This document shows, in pieces, positions 27,482 through 36,603 of a DNA stretch of 64,000 nucleotides (positions are counted from its first letter, which is position 1; each line of letters begins with the position of its first letter). This DNA comes from Novosphingobium sp. 28-62-57 (GTDB lineage Bacteria > Pseudomonadota > Alphaproteobacteria > Sphingomonadales > Sphingomonadaceae): contig NCGO01000002.1 of NCBI GenBank assembly GCA_002256985.1, forward strand, positions 372,001-436,000. Reading direction: 5' to 3'. The translations under genes were made by a program, and so were the position numbers. Below the pieces are notes generated by a model that did no database searches, had not been told where the DNA came from, and was given only the letters and a program-made list of their open reading frames with translations.

Positions 27482-27802
27482 CTGGCGGCAATATCCTGCA
27501 GGTGGCGGCAGCGATTGCAACGCATTGCTCCTACCCCACACTCTCGCGCTTAGCTTTGGCGAATCGGGTGAACAAGCGGCGTTTGGGCTATTATCCACAC
27601 GGAATGTCCCGGATTGGACGCGCTTTACCGTTGAACGGCGGCTTGCGGCAGGGTTCAGCGATGGTTCACGGCGGGAATCTTACTTAACGGGCCAGAAATA
27701 TGCCGTTATGGCGCGAACAGACGCAGTCGGAACAAAGATGTAATGAACCGGGTTCATCGTCTGCCGGCTCGAAAGACACATCGAAATCGGGGCAATTTGA
27801 AT
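27482..27802. promoter_or_regulatory. Divergent intergenic region with a perfect DnaA box
   Basis: This 321-bp stretch lies between the divergent starts of rpe and the DUF2141 gene. It must hold both promoters, though I cannot assign them. It contains TTATCCACA at 27591-27599, an exact match to the DnaA-box consensus. I noticed no other exact match in the window, including in the putative origin 11 kb away. No gene is visible. Confidence 0.6.
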
Positions 27803-28309
27803 ATGAACACGCCGACACGCCGGCCAATTGGTTTGAAGGCCGCGGCGCTGGCCTTTGCCGTTGCCGCTTCAACGCTGGCTGGTGGTATCCCTGCCGCCAT
27901 GGCCGCTGCGCCCAATTGTGCCGGGCCAAAGAGCGATACGTGGATCAATGTGACCGTCGATGGCGTGCGCAATGGCAACGGCCTGATGGCGGTGACGCTT
28001 TATGCCGATGAACCGCGCAAGTTCCTGGCCAAGAAGGGCTCGCTCTATGTCGGACGGGTTGATGCCGATGCGCCCGAAACCCGCATGTGCCTGTTCGTGC
28101 CCAAACCGGGCGTCTATGCCTTGGCCGTCTATCACGACGAGGATTCGAGCACGAACCTGAAGCGCAGCGGTGTGCTCGGCCTGCCCGAGGAAGGCTTCGG
28201 CTTTTCAAACAACCCGCCGACCATTGCGAGCATTCCCTCGTTCCGGTCCGTGCGGCTGAACATCGCCAAATCGGGCCTGTCGACCCGCATTCACCTCAAG
28301 TATCCATAA
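27803..28309 (+). CDS. DUF2141 periplasmic protein
   Basis: The 168-aa protein has an N-terminal signal peptide (residues ~8-35, cleaved near AAMAAAP). The DUF2141 domain follows, recognised by VTVDGVRNGNGLMAVTLY, GVYALAVYHDEDS and GLPEEGFGFSNNPP. Function is unknown; the fold is probably a beta-sandwich in the periplasm. I chose the ATG at 27803 because it starts the signal peptide. The repeat element at 28322 begins 12 bp after the stop. Confidence 0.85.
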   Translation: MNTPTRRPIGLKAAALAFAVAASTLAGGIPAAMAAAPNCAGPKSDTWINVTVDGVRNGNGLMAVTLYADEPRKFLAKKGSLYVGRVDADAPETRMCLFVPKPGVYALAVYHDEDSSTNLKRSGVLGLPEEGFGFSNNPPTIASIPSFRSVRLNIAKSGLSTRIHLKYP

Positions 28310-28556: not shown

Positions 28557-29318
28557 CTAAAGACCTTCTGCCGGAACCCCGATTTCGGCAAAGGTCCGGG
28601 CGAGGTGCCAGGGTGCCAGTTCTTCGGCCAGCGCATGAGCGCGGGGATCGTCTACGTCCATCCACCAGGCATCTTCGATGTCCATCGTGGCCGCGCGCCC
28701 TGCATCGGCAAGGCGCTGCATCCCGTCTGACAGGCTGCCGGGCTTGCCATCGGCAATGGCATCGCGAATGGCCAGCGCCAGTTCGGGCGTTGCCAGAAAT
28801 GCCCCGCAATCCACAGCATCGTAAGGCGTGATGGTCTTGCCGATGGCGGTGATGCGGCCTTCGCTGTCCATCCTGACCCATGTGGCATCATCAGGATCGA
28901 CCAGCGGATTATCAACGCGGCGGTCAATCGCCAGCGTGACGCCGCGGGTTGGCCGGTCTTCGAGCATCAGCCGGGCCAGAATATCGGCATCGAACATATG
29001 GTCGGCCATCATCAGCAGGTAGTTGCCATCGCAGCGCGTGGCCCCGGCCATGACCGAATAGCCATTGGGCGTGGACCAGTTGGTCAGCCTCACCGGCACG
29101 ATTTCCACCCCGGCCCGCAGCGAGAGATCCGCCAGAAAGGCTTCGAGCATCTCGGCATGGTGCCCGGTGACCACGACCACGCGGGTTATGCCTGCCAGCA
29201 TGGCCTGACGTATGCCGATTTCGATCAACGGCACGCCCGCAACCGGGGTGAGCGGTTTGGACGGCGATAAGTCGGCAAGGCGACTGCCGAAACCTGCGGC
29301 GATGATCAGGGCATCCAT
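28557..29318 (-). CDS. Inositol-1-phosphate cytidylyltransferase-like nucleotidyltransferase
   Basis: The 253-aa protein has the NTP-transferase signature ALIIAAGFGSRLADLSPSKP at residues 3-22. Further motifs include NGYSVMAGA, MMADHMFDADIL, DDATWVRMD, ITAIGKTITPYDAVDCGAF and a C-terminal WMDVDDP. The ADH, ATW and IGK...DCGAF pattern resembles the cytidylyltransferase half of the thermophile IPCT/DIPPS enzyme, which makes CDP-inositol from inositol-1-phosphate and CTP. The location directly after inositol-3-phosphate synthase supports that. It is the last gene of a leftward group. The substrate remains inference. Confidence 0.75.
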   Translation of the reverse strand: MDALIIAAGFGSRLADLSPSKPLTPVAGVPLIEIGIRQAMLAGITRVVVVTGHHAEMLEAFLADLSLRAGVEIVPVRLTNWSTPNGYSVMAGATRCDGNYLLMMADHMFDADILARLMLEDRPTRGVTLAIDRRVDNPLVDPDDATWVRMDSEGRITAIGKTITPYDAVDCGAFLATPELALAIRDAIADGKPGSLSDGMQRLADAGRAATMDIEDAWWMDVDDPRAHALAEELAPWHLARTFAEIGVPAEGL

Positions 29319-29349
29319 GACGGCGCTCCGGGTAACGGTTTCGCTGGCA

Positions 29350-29388
29350 AAAGAAAAGGGCTGACCAGACATTCGTCCGGTCAGCCCT
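29350..29388 (-). terminator. Terminator after inositol-3-phosphate synthase
   Basis: On the minus strand GGGCTGACC pairs perfectly with GGTCAGCCC (plus-strand 29358-29366 and 29379-29387), followed by TTTTCTTTT. It lies 26 bp past the ino1 stop and before the downstream nucleotidyltransferase, so it may partly uncouple the two genes. Confidence 0.82.
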
Positions 29389-29413
29389 GGTTCTTCAGGT
29401 CAACAAGCGGTGC

Positions 29414-30514
29414 TTATTCGGCAGCCAGCTTTTCGACCGAGGCGTATTCATCAACCATCTGCGCAGCAACATCATCGTTGAACTGCTGCGGCGGGTGCTT
29501 GCAGAAGTAGGCCGACGGGCCGATCAGCGCGCCGCCTTCACCACGATCCAGCGCAACCTTGCAGCAACGGATCGCATCCATCACGCAAGCGGCCGAGTTC
29601 GGGCTGTCTTCCACCGAGAGGCGCAGTTCGAGGTTCATGGGAACATTGCCCCACTGCTGGCCTTCCATGCGGATGAAGCACAGCTTGTTGTCCTTCTGCC
29701 ATGGCACATAGTCCGAAGGGCCAACGTGGATGTTTTCATCGGCCAGACGCGTGGCAAGCATGGCCTGCACGGCTTCAGTCTTCGATTCCTTCTTGCTGCC
29801 CAGACGCTGACGATCGAGCATGTTCATGAAATCGGTGTTGCCGCCGGTGTTCAGCTGGTACGTGCGCTCAACATTCACGCCGCGCGCTGCGAACAGGCTG
29901 GACAGGACGCGGTGGACGATCGTGGCGCCAACCTGGGCCTTGATATCGTCACCCACGATCGGGATGCGCTTTTCGCGGAACTTCGCTTCCCATTCCGGCG
30001 TCGAAGCGATGAACACGGGCATGCAGTTGACGACGGCAACGCCGGCTTCAAGCGCACATTCCATGTAGAATTCAGTGGCTTCCTGCGACCCGACGGGGAG
30101 GAAGTTGAGCAGCACTTCTGCGCCCGAATCCTTCAGAGCCTTGACGATGGTTTCCTGCGTGGCTTCGGCTTCATCAGCAACGATAAAGCCCTTTTCACCG
30201 ACCGACGTCATGTGCGCGGCAACGCCATCGGACACGCGGCCCATGATGACCTTTGCGCCGGTCATCGGCACATTGGCCTGAAACACGGTGGTGTTGTTGG
30301 GGGCTGCGAAGATGGCTTCGGCAATGTCCTTGCCAACCTTGCGCGCATCGACATCGACGCCGAGCACGAAATCGACGTCCCCTGCACCATATCCGCCAAT
30401 ACGGTCGTGGATGAGGCCCTGCGACGAATTGTTGTTGCGGTAATAGGCAACGCCCTGCACCAGCGAGCTAGCGCAGTTGCCCACGCCGATCACGGCGACC
30501 TTGATTGGCTTCAT
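29414..30514 (-). CDS. ino1: Inositol-3-phosphate synthase
   Basis: The 366-aa NAD-dependent enzyme converts glucose-6-phosphate to myo-inositol-3-phosphate (D-numbering). The Rossmann start IKVAVIGVGNCASSLVQG fits, as do GDDIKAQVGATIVHRVLS and QLNTGGNTDFMNML. It is the short form found in actinobacteria, archaea and some proteobacteria rather than the ~500-aa eukaryotic form. The ATG at 30514 has AAGGGATC upstream. It is surrounded by nucleotidyl- and CDP-alcohol transferases, which implies that the product feeds a phospho-inositol compound. Confidence 0.93.
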   Translation of the reverse strand: MKPIKVAVIGVGNCASSLVQGVAYYRNNNSSQGLIHDRIGGYGAGDVDFVLGVDVDARKVGKDIAEAIFAAPNNTTVFQANVPMTGAKVIMGRVSDGVAAHMTSVGEKGFIVADEAEATQETIVKALKDSGAEVLLNFLPVGSQEATEFYMECALEAGVAVVNCMPVFIASTPEWEAKFREKRIPIVGDDIKAQVGATIVHRVLSSLFAARGVNVERTYQLNTGGNTDFMNMLDRQRLGSKKESKTEAVQAMLATRLADENIHVGPSDYVPWQKDNKLCFIRMEGQQWGNVPMNLELRLSVEDSPNSAACVMDAIRCCKVALDRGEGGALIGPSAYFCKHPPQQFNDDVAAQMVDEYASVEKLAAE

Positions 30515-30812
30515 GAATAACGATCCCTTCAGACAGGCGCTTTGACAGCGGCTGTAATCAAACTGACTCAAAATACCGAAATGCTACCGAATGCAAGCCG
30601 ATTCCTCAGTTGGTCACGAGGAATCGAGGAACAGACATGCTGGTTTAGCCCCGCTTGCCTCGTCCAGTCTCCTGCGCCCTCATCCGCAATCTGCTTCCTG
30701 CGCTGCACCAAGGACCAGGCGCGCAGAACACAGCATCTTCCGATGGGACGCGGCCCTTAACCGAAAAATGCCGCATGTGATAGTGCGTTTCCGCAAGGTC
30801 CATCGCATGCTA
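30515..30812. promoter_or_regulatory. 298-bp region upstream of ino1
   Basis: There is no convincing gene. It lies between the HAD gene end and the ino1 start, both leftward, so ino1 probably has its own promoter here. A weak candidate on the minus strand is TTGCAT with TATTTT 15 bp later, at about 30565-30595. I see no strong repeat. Confidence 0.35.
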
Positions 30813-31520
30813 TCAACCGTTTGCGCAAACCGTGGCAAAAACGTCACCAAGTTCAGCAAGGGATGACAGGGTTTTCGTGCCTGGCACGGCTTGTTCAAAA
30901 TCGTCCATCGTGAACGCTTTGGTCAGCAATGCGCAGAACCGCACCCCGGCCGCGGCCGCGATGTGGGCGTCGTTGGGTGAATCTCCGGTGAACAGAAAAT
31001 GCGCGCGGTTTATGCCGAACCGGTTTTCCAGGGCCAGAAAATGCGCTTCCCCCTTGGCAAAGCCGGGATCTTCGGACGTTCTGGCCCGATAGCCCAGCGC
31101 GCAGTCCACTGGCCAGTCTTCCGAAAGGCGGTCAACATAGGCTTCCAGATTGTTCGACGAAATCGCAACCTTCAGGCCCTGCGCGCGCCAATCGGCCAGC
31201 AATTCTGCGGTGGCGGCCGGAAGCGCGATACCTGTCAGATATCCGTCCTTCCACGCTTCAAACTGCTCTGCCACCGGGTCCGTCTGCGCGCCGGGATAAA
31301 GTTGCCGCAGCTGCCGCTCGAACGGCAGGCCAGAGGTGGCAAAATAGGCGCGCCGGGCATCGGCCAGCGGTGTGCCAAAGGCTTGCGCCATCAGCTCTGC
31401 GGCCTTGTCGGCATAGTCCTCCATGGTTGGCACGAGCGTGCCATCCAGATCGAACACCAGCACCTTGATATGGGCAGGAGCTTGCTTCCTTGCGCGCGGC
31501 GGCGCGCCGTGATCGATCAC
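30813..31520 (-). CDS. HAD-superfamily phosphatase
   Basis: The 235-aa hydrolase has the catalytic loop VLVFDLDGTLVPT (nucleophile and acid Asp at DLD), motif II AISSNN and motif IV FTGDSPNDAHIAAAAG. The cap between motifs I and II is helical, as in subfamily I phosphatases. The start is a GTG at 31520 overlapping the upstream nucleotidyltransferase stop (GTGA). In its setting it could remove the phosphate left after CDP-inositol transfer, as DIPP phosphatase does in thermophiles, or act on another sugar phosphate; this is inference. Confidence 0.82.
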   Translation of the reverse strand: MIDHGAPPRARKQAPAHIKVLVFDLDGTLVPTMEDYADKAAELMAQAFGTPLADARRAYFATSGLPFERQLRQLYPGAQTDPVAEQFEAWKDGYLTGIALPAATAELLADWRAQGLKVAISSNNLEAYVDRLSEDWPVDCALGYRARTSEDPGFAKGEAHFLALENRFGINRAHFLFTGDSPNDAHIAAAAGVRFCALLTKAFTMDDFEQAVPGTKTLSSLAELGDVFATVCANG

Positions 31521-32251
31521 GCAGCCAGACTTTCGCGCGCCACGGCCAGATCTTCGGGCGTATCCACTTCGAACCACACCAGCCCCGACAGCCAGCAGAC
31601 TTTAGGAGAGAGGTCACTTTGGCCCGCGCGCGACGCAGTCCGGGCAAGCTCATCGAGCACCATTTCAACCGATGCTGTTGCCAGATCGCTATGGGCATTC
31701 ACCCGATCAAAGGCGCTCCAATAGCCGTCCGTCGCGCTTTGTGTGACACATGTCGTGCCGATGTAGGCCCCGTCATATTTCGGCAGAGTCTTGGAAATGG
31801 CCATCAGGTGACCGTTTATTTCGATCACTTTCATCTCATCAGACAGAACCGGACGCTCGCGTTCGCAAGCGATACCGATGCCATCGCTTACGACTGCGAA
31901 ATGGCGGGTATACATGTCGACCGGGAAAAGGTGGTCTGCATTGGTGAGGATGAACGCTTCTGTCCCGATCAGCGCGCGCGCAGCCCCCAGCGATGTCAGA
32001 TTGCCAGCCTCAAGCTGCGGATTGCGCACGGTTTGTACCGGAGCACCAGACCAGTGTGTGGCAATATGATCCTCAACAAGGTCTGCGCGGTAGCCGGTGA
32101 CCACGACGATCCGATCGACCACGGCCAGCAGCGCATCGATCGCAAAATCGAGACACGTTCTTCCGGCCACGCCGATCAGAGGTTTGGGCAGGGCTTCCGT
32201 TTCAACCCCAAGCCTGCTTCCGCGGCCCGCAGCCAGGATGACGCCAATCAT
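31517..32251 (-). CDS. NTP transferase, LicC/MobA-like cytidylyltransferase
   Basis: The 244-aa protein begins with GVILAAGRGSRLG and contains LPKPLIGVAG, RNPQLEAGNLTSLGAAR and ILTNADHLFP. It ends with WFEVDTPEDLAVARE. The layout matches small nucleotidyltransferases that activate phospho-alcohols or sugar phosphates with CTP, such as phosphocholine or aminoethylphosphonate cytidylyltransferases. It is translationally coupled to the HAD gene and lies 103 bp after the CDP-alcohol transferase. It probably supplies a second CDP-activated headgroup; the substrate is unknown. Confidence 0.75.
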   Translation of the reverse strand: MIGVILAAGRGSRLGVETEALPKPLIGVAGRTCLDFAIDALLAVVDRIVVVTGYRADLVEDHIATHWSGAPVQTVRNPQLEAGNLTSLGAARALIGTEAFILTNADHLFPVDMYTRHFAVVSDGIGIACERERPVLSDEMKVIEINGHLMAISKTLPKYDGAYIGTTCVTQSATDGYWSAFDRVNAHSDLATASVEMVLDELARTASRAGQSDLSPKVCWLSGLVWFEVDTPEDLAVARESLAA

Positions 32252-32354
32252 TCGTTTCTCGGTTCCCGGTTACAGAACTGTTACTACCCAATTTGGGGTA
32301 ACCAACGGGATCGTGCAAGAGGGGGACCGATTGAGGCTGGTCTTTACGCTTTTG

Positions 32355-33497
32355 TCACAACTGGCGCATGTGCGGCGGCAACAGCAATCCTTCGCCGTCT
32401 GCAGCGATCAGCGGCGCACACCATGCCACCGCGCCAAGCCAGATGCACAGGCCGCCCAGCAGCATTCCGGGGATCAGCCATGCCAGGCCCGACAGGCACA
32501 GGCAGCACGCGAGCAGCACATAGACATCGCGTTTGAACAGGCGTTCGAGCGTGAGCGTGACTTTCTGCAGCGTGGGGCGGCCTTCAAGCCGGTTCGTCAG
32601 CGCCGCGCGCAGCACATCGAAGCTGCCCCGCTTTGGCCCCATGCGCACCAGCACGCTCATTGCGCCAATACCGCACACCAGCAGCGCCACGCAGGCCAAT
32701 CCGATCCACGCATAGCCAAGGCCATAAGTGCCGACCACGCCGATCATCAGGCCGATCACGAAGCCAAGGTTGGCCACCATATCGCAGGCCGTATCCAGCA
32801 GCGCCCCGCGCCGGCTCATCGACCATGAAACGCGCGCGATATCGCCATCGACGCAATCGGTGATCGACACCACCTGAAACAGCACGCCGCCCAGCGCCAG
32901 CCAACCATAACTGCCCTGGGCAAGGACCACCGCCATGACTGCGGCCAGCAGCAGCGTGAACCACGTGATCGGATCCGGGCCGATGCCCAGCTTCATCGCC
33001 AGCGCCGACATGCGGAACGAGATCGGGCGGTTGATCCAGCGGCCGACCGGCCCTTCGGTGGGCTTCAGCGTGGCGTGTAGCAAGGCCATGACCGTGGCCC
33101 TTTCGGTGTCTTCGCGCACAAGACGCGGATCACCGCGCGCAAGCACCAGCGCGGGTTCTGCGGCCAAAGCTTCGAGCGCGGCTTTGGTCGGCAAGGCATC
33201 GCCGGGGAGCAGGGCCGTGCCTGCTGGCAAGTCTGCGGCAGACGGCAGGACGGTGACTTTGGGCAATGGGCGCGCGCGCAGGGCAAAGCTTTTGCGCCAG
33301 TCTTCATCAATCGGCTCTTCATCAATCGGCTCTTCATCAACCGGCTGATCGGCGATGATGAAGATGGCTTGTGCGCCTGCCACATCGGCCAGAATAACGC
33401 CGCGCGCAATTCCGGTAATGCCGCCAATCCGGCGTCGCAGAAAGGAACTTGCTGGAATTGCGACGAAAAACGGATTGCTCAAGTGCGTTTGCCCCAT
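32355..33497 (-). CDS. CDP-alcohol phosphatidyltransferase with N-terminal extension (DIPPS-like)
   Basis: The 380-aa protein has a soluble N-terminal region (1-~165), then a connector (ATLKPTEGPVGRWINRPIS) and a membrane CDP-alcohol transferase domain. The motif DCVDGDIAR...GALLDTACD (DGxxAR(x)8Gx3Dx3D) is intact, with about six membrane segments. The connector and NRPIS motif resemble the thermophile enzyme that joins CDP-inositol to inositol-phosphate. A 15-bp repeat (33301-33345, three units) encodes PVDEE-PIDEE-PIDED in the extension. The ATG at 33497 is chosen because sequence upstream is antisense to the divergent transferase at 33582. Confidence 0.82.
   Translation of the reverse strand: MGQTHLSNPFFVAIPASSFLRRRIGGITGIARGVILADVAGAQAIFIIADQPVDEEPIDEEPIDEDWRKSFALRARPLPKVTVLPSAADLPAGTALLPGDALPTKAALEALAAEPALVLARGDPRLVREDTERATVMALLHATLKPTEGPVGRWINRPISFRMSALAMKLGIGPDPITWFTLLLAAVMAVVLAQGSYGWLALGGVLFQVVSITDCVDGDIARVSWSMSRRGALLDTACDMVANLGFVIGLMIGVVGTYGLGYAWIGLACVALLVCGIGAMSVLVRMGPKRGSFDVLRAALTNRLEGRPTLQKVTLTLERLFKRDVYVLLACCLCLSGLAWLIPGMLLGGLCIWLGAVAWCAPLIAADGEGLLLPPHMRQL
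33301..33345. repeat. In-frame 15-bp tandem repeat, three units
   Basis: Three adjacent units of TCTTCATCAATCGGC occur; the first two are identical and the third has one base change. They encode an acidic pentapeptide (P-V/I-D-E-E/D) on the minus strand within the CDP-alcohol transferase. Copy number could vary without frameshift. Confidence 0.95.
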
Positions 33498-33581
33498 ACC
33501 GTGCGTCGCAGGCTCTTTCCACGCCCTATAGACCCGGCTACCGGTTGCGCCAAGTCGGCTTCCAGAAGAGGGATTGCAAGG

Positions 33582-34550
33582 GTGAACGTGGCAAAACGGG
33601 TAGGGACGATCGAGCGCCCAAAACGCCCGCGTGAATTGCAGGACGGCCTGAACTATCACCTTTACCACCCGCTGGCATGGCGTCTGGCGCGCGCGCTGGC
33701 GCATACGCCGCTGACGCCCAACATGGTCTCGGTATTCGGCGGCTTGCTCGTCGTGGCGGCAGGCGTGGTCTATTTCAACATGGATGCCACTGGCGGCACT
33801 TGGGCGCTGGGCTGGCCATGGGGCGCGCTGCTGGGGCTGGTGCTGCACATGAGCTGGCACGTGGTTGACGGGGCCGATGGTGATCTGGCGCGGATCACCG
33901 GCAAGACCAGCCCGATTGGCGAAATGGTTGACGGCATTTGCGATTATCTCAGCCATATCGTGCTTTATGTGCTGCTGGCCTTCGTGCTGACCCGGCAGAT
34001 TGGTGCAGGCGCGGCCTGGGCCTGGACGCTGGCGGCAGGGGCCAGCCACATCGTGCAATCGAACCATGTCGAAGTGCAGCGCCGGTTCTACCAATACTGG
34101 ACCTATGGCGTGCCCTGGCTGAACAATGCGAAGGACAATGGCGCGGGCCTGTTCGGATCGGGCGGACTGTTTGCGCGGCTGTTTGAACCGATTGCGCGGG
34201 CCTATCTGCGCCTTGCTGCCGGGATGACGCCGCATGCCCGCCAAATTGACGCTGCTGTGGGCGCGGCGATGGCATCGGGCGATGATGGCAGACTGGCCGC
34301 AATCCGGGCCGAAGTGGCGCGCGAACAAAAGCCGCTGCTCGATTTCCTGAAGCTGCTTGGCCCCAATCCGCGCGCTATCGTGCTGGGCCTTGCGATGCTT
34401 GCGGGCAGCCCGGTGTGGTATTTCTTCTATCAGGCCGTGGTGCTCAACGTGCTGCTGATCATCTCGGTCCAGCTGCACAACCGCGCGGCGATGGCCACGG
34501 CCTCACGGCTGGATGGCCCGCCCCCTCCGGGTTCCCCGGCGTTTAGTTGA
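33582..34550 (+). CDS. CDP-alcohol phosphatidyltransferase family membrane protein
   Basis: The 322-aa protein carries the CDP-alcohol transferase motif DGADGDLARITGKTSPIG followed by EMVDGICDYLSH, which matches the required DGxxAR, G and two Asp positions. It has about six hydrophobic segments. A helical amphipathic segment lies between the second and third segment groups (EVQRRFYQYWTYG). It moves a phospho-alcohol from a CDP-linked donor to a hydroxyl acceptor. The GTG at 33582 is preceded by AGAGGGAT. It is divergent from the DIPPS-like gene (84 bp apart) and convergent with the MFS gene. Donor and acceptor are unknown. Confidence 0.8.
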   Translation: MNVAKRVGTIERPKRPRELQDGLNYHLYHPLAWRLARALAHTPLTPNMVSVFGGLLVVAAGVVYFNMDATGGTWALGWPWGALLGLVLHMSWHVVDGADGDLARITGKTSPIGEMVDGICDYLSHIVLYVLLAFVLTRQIGAGAAWAWTLAAGASHIVQSNHVEVQRRFYQYWTYGVPWLNNAKDNGAGLFGSGGLFARLFEPIARAYLRLAAGMTPHARQIDAAVGAAMASGDDGRLAAIRAEVAREQKPLLDFLKLLGPNPRAIVLGLAMLAGSPVWYFFYQAVVLNVLLIISVQLHNRAAMATASRLDGPPPPGSPAFS

Positions 34551-34552
34551 AG

Positions 34553-35845
34553 CTAAACCGCGTCCTTGCGCACGGCAAAGACGCACAGCACCACGACCGA
34601 TAGCGTCAGCGCCTCGATCACGCCCCAAACCAGCCATGGCGAATGGCCATAGAGCCACACGCCAATGGCAGGCGCGGCGATATAGGCCGCACCATTGACC
34701 GATGTGACGATGCCTGCGGCCTGCCCCTGCTCTCCGCGACCGACGGCAAGGCTGGCGCCCGATGTGAAGCCGGGGCGGAACATCCCGAATCCCAGCGAAG
34801 CGACGGCAAAGCCGACCGCGATGGTGTGCAAGTCGCTCCCTGCGGCAATTGGCAGCACGCCCAGTGTGGCAAGGCCCATGCCCCACAGCGTGGAGGTGCG
34901 CGGGCCCATGCCCAGCATCGGGATCAACCCCCACTGCGCCAGCAAAGTGGCCACCGCCCCTGCCATCAGCACCAGCCCGACCGGGCCCGCCCCCGCATCG
35001 GGATCACCGCGCAACCCCAACCGGTCCAGCAGCAGGAACCCGATCACGCCCAGCACCATGGCTTGCGCATGGCCACCGATCAGCCCAGCCAACAGCCATG
35101 GACGCAGGCGCTGATCCCGCAGCCGCAGCCGTGCAGCTTCGACCGGTTGTTCGGCGGTGTCCTCTGCTGCCATCGGTGCATTCGATGATCCGCCATAAGG
35201 ATCGGCCATGACCTCGCCGCGCCCGGCAAAGCGCGGGTCATCATCAGGCAGGCGCGTGCGCAGCAGCACCAGCACGATCACGCCCATGATCGCAAAGACC
35301 GCAAAAGGCCCGACCAGACCGATGCCGGGCAGGATCATCAGCGGGGCGAGCGCCGGGCCCAGCACGGTGCCAAGGCCAAAGCTGGACGCCACCAGCGCGA
35401 GCGCCTTGGTCCGCTCGGCCCGGCCCGTTCTGCTCGCCACATAGGCCTGCACCGCAGGCGGCGCGGCCGATCCCAGCAGCCCGTAGAACGAGCGCGCCAG
35501 GGCAAACAGGCTCATCGTCATCACGCCGCTCAGCCAGCCATTGAGGCCGAAATGGAGGATGGCCCCGCACAGGGTGAACGAGAGGATGAAGCCGATGACG
35601 CCCAGCGCCATCATCGCCTTGCGGCCCCGGCGATCAGACCGGCGCGCCCAATAGGGTGCGAGCATGACCCACAAAAGCGCCGACCATGAATAGGCAAGGC
35701 TGACCCACACATCGGCGATGCCAAGCCGCGTGCCGACCGATGGCATGACCGATTGCATCGCCGTATTCCCGGCCGCTGTCACCAGCATCACCGCAAACAG
35801 CAGCGCCATGCGTTCCCGTGGCAGCCGAACCGCGCCCTCGGTCAT
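34553..35845 (-). CDS. MFS transporter
   Basis: The 430-aa membrane protein has twelve predicted membrane segments. The MFS loop motif between segments 2 and 3 (APYWARRSDRRGRKAMM, about residues 63-79) is well conserved, and the second half repeats it weakly. The overall style is that of the drug/metabolite:H+ antiporters (TetA/PmrA-like). It ends 2 bp from the end of the convergent CDP-alcohol transferase. The substrate is unknown; export of a phospho-inositol product is possible but speculative. Confidence 0.85.
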   Translation of the reverse strand: MTEGAVRLPRERMALLFAVMLVTAAGNTAMQSVMPSVGTRLGIADVWVSLAYSWSALLWVMLAPYWARRSDRRGRKAMMALGVIGFILSFTLCGAILHFGLNGWLSGVMTMSLFALARSFYGLLGSAAPPAVQAYVASRTGRAERTKALALVASSFGLGTVLGPALAPLMILPGIGLVGPFAVFAIMGVIVLVLLRTRLPDDDPRFAGRGEVMADPYGGSSNAPMAAEDTAEQPVEAARLRLRDQRLRPWLLAGLIGGHAQAMVLGVIGFLLLDRLGLRGDPDAGAGPVGLVLMAGAVATLLAQWGLIPMLGMGPRTSTLWGMGLATLGVLPIAAGSDLHTIAVGFAVASLGFGMFRPGFTSGASLAVGRGEQGQAAGIVTSVNGAAYIAAPAIGVWLYGHSPWLVWGVIEALTLSVVVLCVFAVRKDAV

Positions 35846-35976
35846 CGTCTTTCCTGCCCGCTTGTCTGCTGGTGGATCATTCTGGACGGTTAGGCGCGCT
35901 GCTCCGTGCTTGCAATGCCGTTACAAATTTGCGACTCGCATGAATTGTTCAGACCGGCAGAGGATGTCTTCCTGCA

Positions 35977-36603
35977 ATGACTTCGACCCAGGTTGCGCGC
36001 GCGCCCCTTCTCCAGCGGGCAAAGCGCAAGGCAGAACGCCTGCTCGGCCCTGCCGGGATCTTCTTCCGGGGCTTCCTCAAGCACCCGGGCATGGTGGGGG
36101 CCATTGTTCCGTCATCAAACCGCACGATTGAGCGGGTTTTGTCGGTGGTAGACTGGGAAGAATGCCAGCTGTTCGTGGAATATGGCCCCGGCGTTGGCAC
36201 ATTCTGCCGCCCGGTGCTCGACAAGCTGCGCCGTGACGGGCGGCTGATCGTGATCGATACCAATCCCGATTTCATCGACTACCTTCAGAAAACCATCGGC
36301 GACAGCCGCTTCATCGCGGTGCATGGTTCCGCGACTGATGTGGAAGAGATCGTGCGCGCCAATGGTTTTGAGCATGCCGATTACGTGCTTTCTGGCCTGC
36401 CCTTCTCGAACCTGCCCGAAGGGGTAGGTCCGGCGATCATGGGCGCCACGCACAGCGTGCTGCGTCCCGGTGGCGCATTCCTCGTCTATCAGTACACGGC
36501 GCGCGCGCGCGATCTGATGGGCCAGTTCTTCCGCCGCATCGACAAGGGCTTTGAGCCGGTCAACCTGCCGCCTTGCGTGATCAGCTGGGGCTGGAAAGAG
36601 TAG
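35977..36603 (+). CDS. Phospholipid N-methyltransferase-like SAM methyltransferase
   Basis: The 208-aa protein has the class I methyltransferase glycine motif LFVEYGPGVGTFCRPVLDKL, then LIVIDTNPDF (motif II) and DYVLSGLPFSNLP (the motif IV position resembling NPPY/GLPF). The N-terminus FFRGFLKHPGMVGAIVPSS is typical of the PmtA phosphatidylethanolamine methyltransferase family in alphaproteobacteria. It probably methylates a lipid headgroup. Length fits. It lies next to the CDP-alcohol/inositol gene group, which adds to the lipid theme. rRNA dimethyltransferases share motifs but are longer. Confidence 0.78.
   Translation: MTSTQVARAPLLQRAKRKAERLLGPAGIFFRGFLKHPGMVGAIVPSSNRTIERVLSVVDWEECQLFVEYGPGVGTFCRPVLDKLRRDGRLIVIDTNPDFIDYLQKTIGDSRFIAVHGSATDVEEIVRANGFEHADYVLSGLPFSNLPEGVGPAIMGATHSVLRPGGAFLVYQYTARARDLMGQFFRRIDKGFEPVNLPPCVISWGWKE

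Follow-up and report, generated by a model that had tools for sequence, protein, structure and literature searches.

A 64,000-nucleotide stretch of the genome of Novosphingobium sp. 28-62-57 (contig NCGO01000002.1, positions 372,001 to 436,000; hereafter the window) contains a group of genes that appear to serve the synthesis of an inositol-phosphate head group. Three of them, encoding a myo-inositol-phosphate synthase (MIPS), a predicted CTP:inositol-phosphate cytidylyltransferase (IPCT; here NTP1) and a CDP-alcohol phosphotransferase (CDP2), form a core that recurs across the window's order. The first-pass annotation had joined these with five neighbours as a candidate inositol-phosphate pathway, and domain searches recovered all eight genes in place and with the domain types it had given them.

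Core genes:
28557..29318, minus strand: NTP1, predicted IPCT-type CTP:inositol-phosphate cytidylyltransferase (NTP_transf_3)
29414..30514, minus strand: MIPS, myo-inositol-phosphate synthase (Inos-1-P_synth, PF01658, 4e-36)
about 33582..34550, plus strand: CDP2, CDP-alcohol phosphotransferase (CDP-OH_P_transf, PF01066)
Variable second set:
30813..31520, minus strand: HAD phosphatase (PF00702/PF13419; start inferred)
31517..32251, minus strand: NTP2, second cytidylyltransferase (NTP_transf_3)
32355..33497, minus strand: CDP1, DIPPS-like CDP-alcohol phosphotransferase with a degenerate IPCT-like N-terminal half (CDP-OH_P_transf)
Flanking, not core:
34553..35845, minus strand: MFS carrier (MFS_1, PF07690)
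35977..36603, plus strand: OlsG/PmtA-like methyltransferase (NF041658, 8.4e-25)
27743..28309, plus strand: small DUF2141 protein adjoining NTP1 (PF09912; associated in Novosphingobium only)

Read from 33497 along the minus strand, the order is CDP1, NTP2, HAD, MIPS and NTP1, and the NTP2 stop overlaps the HAD start by four bases if the latter begins at the GTG at 31520. CDP2 is divergent from CDP1 across 84 bp and is followed by the MFS gene (minus) and the methyltransferase gene (plus). The MIPS protein scores 419 bits against TIGR03450, under the cut-off of 638 of that mycothiol model, and the methyltransferase reaches 87.6 of 350 bits against NF041658, a likeness to OlsG/PmtA that is under family cut-offs.

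A conserved core of three genes

Conservation was assessed in two sets of loci. For the order-wide set, 196 genomes of the window's order were searched for MIPS at E 1e-10, which gave 74 matches besides the window's own. Neighbours were examined in 60 of them; the 14 outside the neighbourhood counts comprise 12 strong and two weak partial matches. The NTP1-found loci are the best 80 of at least 499 relatives from an NTP1-profile scan of named genomes; almost all are labelled Novosphingobium or other Sphingomonadales, and the nearest relatives of the window's NTP1 among them, its own genome excluded, are from Novosphingobium. Genome searches for CDP2 scored the top 12 candidates per genome in the order, and the top six in samples of the class (385 genomes) and phylum (378 genomes).

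MIPS was found in 73 of the 196 order genomes, 71 full-length and two as weak partial matches. CDP2 at the strict cut is present in 62, of which 60 also carry MIPS and the other two are incomplete genomes. The coincidence of full-length MIPS with strict CDP2 (71 and 62, both in 60, of 196) gives a Fisher p of 2.5e-36, which overstates the association because the genomes are related. All 80 NTP1-found loci have MIPS next to NTP1, on the same strand and no more than 400 bp away, and CDP2 is present in 66 of these (67 at a looser cut) and in 48 of the 49 that have 8 kb on both sides. Order-wide, NTP1 lies anywhere in the locus in 49 of 60 cases and on the same strand at most 400 bp from MIPS in 39, while CDP2 occurs in 37 loci, every one of which also has NTP1. 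Based on these counts we take MIPS, NTP1 and CDP2 as the core, and their grouping exceeds chance.

The other genes of the window are less constant. The NTP2 and HAD pair was found in 7 of the 80 NTP1-found loci and in none of the 60 order-wide ones, the MFS gene in 25 and 3, and the methyltransferase gene in 17 and 3. A conserved unit of eight genes was therefore rejected, and of the co-occurrence that the first-pass annotation had put forward for checking, the core survives while NTP2, HAD, MFS and methyltransferase genes prove variable or flanking. A transferase with a degenerate, pseudo-IPCT half is a frequent partner of the core (21 of 60 order-wide and 31 of 80 NTP1-found loci), with NTP2 and HAD the rarer pair. 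CDP2 also occurs away from MIPS in 16 of the loci examined: 13 place it next to a degenerate fusion of the f11 type, one next to NTP2-HAD and two next to neither. No CDP2 match came from a search of plasmids.

Relatives of two types of membrane transporter recur in the order-wide loci, namely PF01943 flippases (23 of 60) and MMPL transporters (12 of 60). A flippase relative stands between the MFS gene and CDP2 in 13 of the 80 NTP1-found loci (L080, L081 and L084 among them). In the window the MFS gene directly abuts CDP2 (34550-34553) with no flippase relative between them, the rest of the genome not having been searched for a copy.

Predicted chemistry of the core and of the second set

The best solved relatives of NTP1 are the IPCT 2xme (8.9e-16), the bifunctional IPCT-DIPPS protein 4mnd (5.4e-15) and the IPCT entry 4jd0 (9.4e-13), the top three of 30 matches, spanning residues 1-226 of 253; alignment to characterised enzymes, as the earlier annotation had proposed, thus came out in favour of IPCT. 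Residues R13, K21 and D106 are invariant in 19 aligned rows, NTP2 included, and were equated by eye from the motifs, not by overlay, with the critical R16, K26 and D112 of the Thermotoga maritima IPCT (PMC12275187). A maximum-likelihood tree of 34 rows, midpoint-rooted and with three long branches, places NTP1 in a supported clade (100/99) together with MIPS-fused IPCTs and IPCT-DIPPS proteins, and in four genomes MIPS and NTP1 are fused in a single frame (L173, 625 aa; L176, 698; L179, 631; L187, 643). We therefore assign NTP1, by homology, as an IPCT-type enzyme. Caulobacter CpgD is described as having the same fold with phosphoglycerate as substrate (PMC12275187), so fold alone would not settle the substrate, and it is mostly the MIPS fusions and adjacency that point to inositol phosphate for NTP1.

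CDP2 carries the complete motif D1xxD2GxxAR...GxxxD3xxxD4, with D96, D99, G100, A103, R104, G113, D117 and D121 invariant in 30 rows. Hydropathy and the secondary structure of its AlphaFold2 model (mean pLDDT 90.7) indicate about six membrane helices, the fourth and fifth of which are separated by a cytosolic insert. The closest phmmer matches were AF2299 (2.5e-7) and CEPT1 (3.5e-6). Foldseek returned AF2299, CEPT1, DIPPS and phosphatidylinositol-phosphate (PIP) synthases mixed at weak E-values, with one of 292 matches under 0.001, and fold was rejected as a judge of the CDP2 acceptor. Six genomes whose trio locus has no fusion (G145, G156, G136, G044, G546 and G438) were searched with the fusion profile, using G000 and G150 as positive controls; none of the six has a full-length match elsewhere, which would leave CDP2 as the sole transferase linked to the module that could use CDP-inositol.

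The second set is of a different kind. The AlphaFold2 model of CDP1 (mean pLDDT 90.6) has IPCT-DIPPS 4mnd as its top Foldseek match (3.6e-8, TMq 0.60, 457 alignment columns with gaps), and the model accordingly predicts a DIPPS-type CDP-alcohol half in a two-domain fold. AF2299 is also among the top CDP1 matches; it has a cytidylyltransferase-like domain, and its structure holds the glycerol part of CDP-glycerol (PMC4634129). The N-terminal half of CDP1 has neither GxGxRL nor the following K and so does not qualify as an active IPCT. Both features are missing in all CDP1, f16 and f11 rows examined and are kept by NTP1 and by the bifunctional IPCT-DIPPS frames of the class. CDP1 thus resembles a DIPPS-type transferase that has lost a working IPCT half and whose activated substrate would now come from a separate enzyme. 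The earlier description of IPCT and DIPPS halves as separate genes is right for the free IPCT, NTP1, and not for CDP1, which keeps a degenerate cytidylyltransferase-like half.

NTP2 falls outside the NTP1 clade and groups with cytidylyltransferases encoded near the serine palmitoyltransferase (SPT) gene, spt, in L220 and L222; its solved relatives include 2xme (1.3e-9) and 6pd1 (1e-7). The suggested duplication of one IPCT/DIPPS pair was rejected, since NTP1 and NTP2 belong to two clades (100/99) and the window holds two different sets. HAD adjoins NTP2 in L069 too, in a genome (G009) where NTP2-HAD sits beside CDP2 on a 4.3-kb contig (L069, L212).

Core genes within ceramide clusters

Outside the order the core is rare, and where it does occur it lies among ceramide synthesis genes. 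MIPS is present in 31 of 385 class genomes and strict CDP2 in three, the window's genome, G438 and G546, while the five of 378 phylum genomes with strict CDP2 are all from the window's order. Scoring every CDP2 candidate in the 29 MIPS-positive class genomes outside the family returned the same two carriers. In both of them, which belong to two families, the trio lies within about 5 kb of spt. The G546 cluster (L174) reads radical SAM, PIG-L-like protein, GT4 glycosyltransferase, DUF2141, SPT, LptF, LptG, CDP2, NTP1, MIPS, glycosyltransferase, fatty acyl-AMP ligase, CerR-like reductase, CerS-like GNAT and fatty-acid hydroxylase, with its SPT (667 vs 500 bits) and acyl-AMP ligase (874 vs 600) above the NCBIfam cut-offs. 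The G438 cluster is on two contig ends that share an exact 127-base overlap inside spt, one with LptF, LptG, CDP2, ligase, CerR-like protein and SPT (L203), the other with SPT, hydroxylase, CerS-like protein and a MIPS::NTP1 fusion (L173). The labels for radical SAM, the sugar genes f8/f24/f25/f40 and f41 were assigned by eye, and CerS-like and CerR-like denote a likeness to the Caulobacter cluster of PMC11324152 in gene order and in type of domain, not a match to a curated model.

One ceramide cluster without CDP2 (L220) has in its place a DAGK-type kinase, a CDP-alcohol protein and cytidylyltransferases; the kinase of the Caulobacter scheme is a ceramide kinase (PMC11324152). The L220 CDP-alcohol protein is nearest to f11b (3.5e-19) and matches CDP1 at no better than 1.9e-4. 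By analogy, it is as if the head group had been exchanged within one chassis.

The presence of SPT is of little use on its own. The window's genome carries SPT, as do 173 of 173 good genomes of the order, so SPT there says nothing for our proposal and its presence was rejected as evidence within the order. The 29 MIPS-positive genomes of the class that fall outside the family every one match SPT, a wide enzyme family, at 1e-40, and seven match at 1.7e-93 or better, both CDP2 carriers included; this would happen by chance at about 0.05 and is weak alone, and it is the physical linkage that carries weight. Among the 27 MIPS loci examined from class genomes that lack strict CDP2, an NTP1 relative is present in six (L176, L179, L181, L182, L183 and L187) and is accompanied in five of them by a DIPPS-like partner; most of the 27 show neither. 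Four of the five genomes with a DIPPS-like partner give weak, family-level SPT matches and the fifth, G563, has a true SPT.

Two further genes keep company with the ceramide clusters. DUF2141, found in 54 of 80 NTP1-found loci but in just 5 of 60 order-wide loci, and therefore a hint and not a core member, has relatives in clusters L174, L203, L220 and L221; its recurrence there and beside NTP1 in Novosphingobium would suit a possible helper in sphingolipid export. A GT4 glycosyltransferase and a PIG-L-like protein occur in both spt/inositol clusters (L174:860-2759 and L203:8078-10005, the latter PIG-L-like protein scoring 26.9 bits against PF02585, slightly short of its 28.2-bit cut-off), which would suit glycosylation of the inositol lipid by an amino sugar.

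A candidate head-group pathway and its alternatives

We propose, with a probability of roughly two in three, that the trio is the head-group pathway for an inositol-phosphoryl-(dihydro)ceramide made via CDP-inositol. MIPS, by its family function, would make inositol phosphate, and NTP1 would couple this with CTP to give CDP-inositol, as its IPCT homology, the MIPS fusions of other genomes and its conserved catalytic residues suggest. With CDP-inositol as donor, CDP2 would then attach phosphoinositol to the hydroxyl group of ceramide, an acceptor suggested by gene neighbourhood and presumably supplied by the genome's SPT pathway. In the window's lineage the second set may modify or extend the head group, the least certain part of the scheme: NTP2 would make another CDP-alcohol, CDP1 would transfer it and HAD would remove a phosphate, similar to the extension of ceramide phosphoglycerate that has been proposed for CpgD/CpgA of Caulobacter. 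Some relatives have, in place of this set, a related fusion unaccompanied by NTP2 and HAD, which may add a second phosphoinositol. The first-pass annotation is partly supported: an inositol-phosphate pathway on IPCT chemistry in a mesophilic sphingomonad fits the evidence for NTP1 and MIPS in Novosphingobium, and among the products it left open (phosphatidylinositol lipid, solute or polymer) a sphingolipid, to which the neighbourhood points, was not named.

Several observations weigh against the ceramide proposal. Ceramide is not, to our knowledge, a described acceptor for any CDP-alcohol transferase of bacteria, and CDP2 is without the extra C-terminal helices of CEPT1-type enzymes. Lipid-acceptor members of this family typically have three to four more C-terminal helices, and the prokaryotic members characterised by 2015 use soluble acceptors (both from PMC4634129). 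Linkage to spt outside the order comes from two genomes, and within it none of the 60 order-wide MIPS loci has an SPT match; sphingolipid genes are reported as scattered in Sphingomonadales (PMC11324152). In addition, 11 of these 60 loci are without NTP1, two of them cut by contig ends and nine, by our reading, not, and seven of the nine have sugar-type genes. The short MIPS contig of G009 (L023) shows no NTP1 and, with CDP2 beside NTP2-HAD in that genome, NTP2 might replace NTP1 there. Finally, the word inositol is absent from two papers on Sphingomonadales and Novosphingobium (PMC13028669, PMC13318209), and the N. acidiphilum genome is not among the named loci (best 80 of at least 499).

The strongest competing explanation, which we nonetheless regard as unlikely, is that the product is phosphatidylinositol, with CDP2 placing phosphoinositol on diacylglycerol in a Kennedy-like manner or working as a PIP synthase that joins CDP-diacylglycerol (CDP-DAG) to inositol phosphate. 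The acceptor of CDP2 cannot be read from its sequence, its six-helix topology suits a soluble acceptor, and it has weak matches to CEPT1/CPT1 and to the archaetidylinositol-phosphate and PIP synthase models. These model scores are far under the curated cut-offs, however (41.5 of 180 and 30.8 of 170 bits, respectively), a CDP-DAG donor would leave idle the NTP1 that accompanies CDP2 in all 37 order-wide CDP2 loci, and both CDP2-carrying clusters outside the order are ceramide clusters.

We give considerably less credence to di-myo-inositol phosphate or a related soluble solute, in which CDP1 would act as DIPP synthase on inositol phosphate and HAD would remove the phosphate. NTP1 is IPCT-like, CDP1 folds like IPCT-DIPPS 4mnd in its model, HAD is in the operon, and bifunctional IPCT-DIPPS frames adjoin MIPS in L064, L181, L182 and L183. 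Yet the fusion is dispensable, being absent from the six of six trio genomes tested, and an obligatory pathway of this kind was rejected on that ground; CDP2 and the flippase, MMPL and spt neighbours are unsuited to a soluble solute; and G022 has a bifunctional IPCT-DIPPS MIPS locus (L064) in addition to a separate NTP1-f11-CDP2 locus (L037), as though each served a purpose of its own. The least probable explanation is that phosphoinositol decorates a capsule or another glycan of the cell surface, or forms its lipid anchor: the module lies beside GT4 and ABC-2 export genes in L015-L017, L019 and L020, one family branch whose genes we read as capsule-type and which also counts against a ceramide product, but this amounts to 5 of 60 order-wide loci, and no such neighbourhood surrounds the window.

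The predicted ceramide pathway shares parts with several known systems. By gene content, the putative alternative Bacteroides vulgatus/Prevotella cluster of Heaver 2022, with BVU_RS13095/13105/13115 among its genes, likewise has MIPS, an NTP transferase, a CDP-alcohol transferase and a HAD protein, with a proposed CDP-inositol route without a PIP step, as in our reading of the window (PMC9246714); unlike that cluster, most relatives of the trio have no HAD in the locus. The Bacteroides thetaiotaomicron BT_1522-1526 and mycobacterial PIP-synthase routes also make an inositol lipid from the MIPS product, but the trio conserves a cytidylyltransferase instead of the CDP-DAG route and CDP2 scores far under the PIP synthase cut-offs. 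Like the IPCT/DIPPS of hyperthermophiles (2xme, 4mnd, 4jd0), the window has an IPCT-like NTP1 and a CDP1 that matches IPCT-DIPPS in sequence and predicted fold; unlike them, its IPCT is free, the IPCT half of CDP1 is degenerate and the conserved partner is CDP2. The Caulobacter CpgA-CpgD pathway, like the scheme predicted here, combines a cytidylyltransferase with a CDP-alcohol transferase, the latter proposed to act on a phosphosphingolipid, and this ceramide diphosphoglycerate pathway shares the company of LptF2/LptG2 (PMC11324152 and PMC12275187). Genes similar to NTP2 and to the f11-type fusion occur in L220, a Caulobacter-looking cluster. The Caulobacter pathway starts with ceramide kinase and phosphoglycerate, whereas from the window's MIPS and IPCT-type enzyme a head group of inositol would be expected.

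A product of the kind proposed has a possible precedent within the genus. N. acidiphilum is reported to have a lipid consistent with an inositol-phosphoceramide, similar to PI-DHC, although its genome lacks homology to both Bacteroidetes clusters, while Sphingomonas paucimobilis has a different lipid, tentatively a phosphohexose (PMC9246714). Among the open-licence papers listed in our searches we recognised none naming genes for the N. acidiphilum lipid. The trio could supply them and is a small, specific and testable gene candidate. If the proposal is correct, bacteria can make inositol sphingolipids by a CDP-inositol route, the trio is a marker predicting which sphingomonads do so, and a transferase with an unusual acceptor is added. 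A bolder version, which we offer tentatively and hold at well below even odds, is that this is a bacterial counterpart of fungal and plant inositol sphingolipid synthesis with CDP-inositol in place of phosphatidylinositol as donor, that CDP2 represents a novel type of CDP-alcohol transferase whose acceptor is ceramide, that the dead-IPCT/DIPPS enzyme attaches a second phospho-alcohol to yield a di-(phosphoinositol)-ceramide-like lipid, and that GT4 and PIG-L-like proteins glycosylate it in some relatives.

Other uses of inositol may exist alongside. The two MIPS loci of G022 (L064 and L037) suggest two separate inositol pathways in one genome, and seven MIPS loci without NTP1 or CDP2 (L024, L042, L051, L052, L059, L060 and L061) have sugar-epimerase-, methyltransferase- and dehydrogenase-like genes, labelled by eye, which would fit a different use of inositol.

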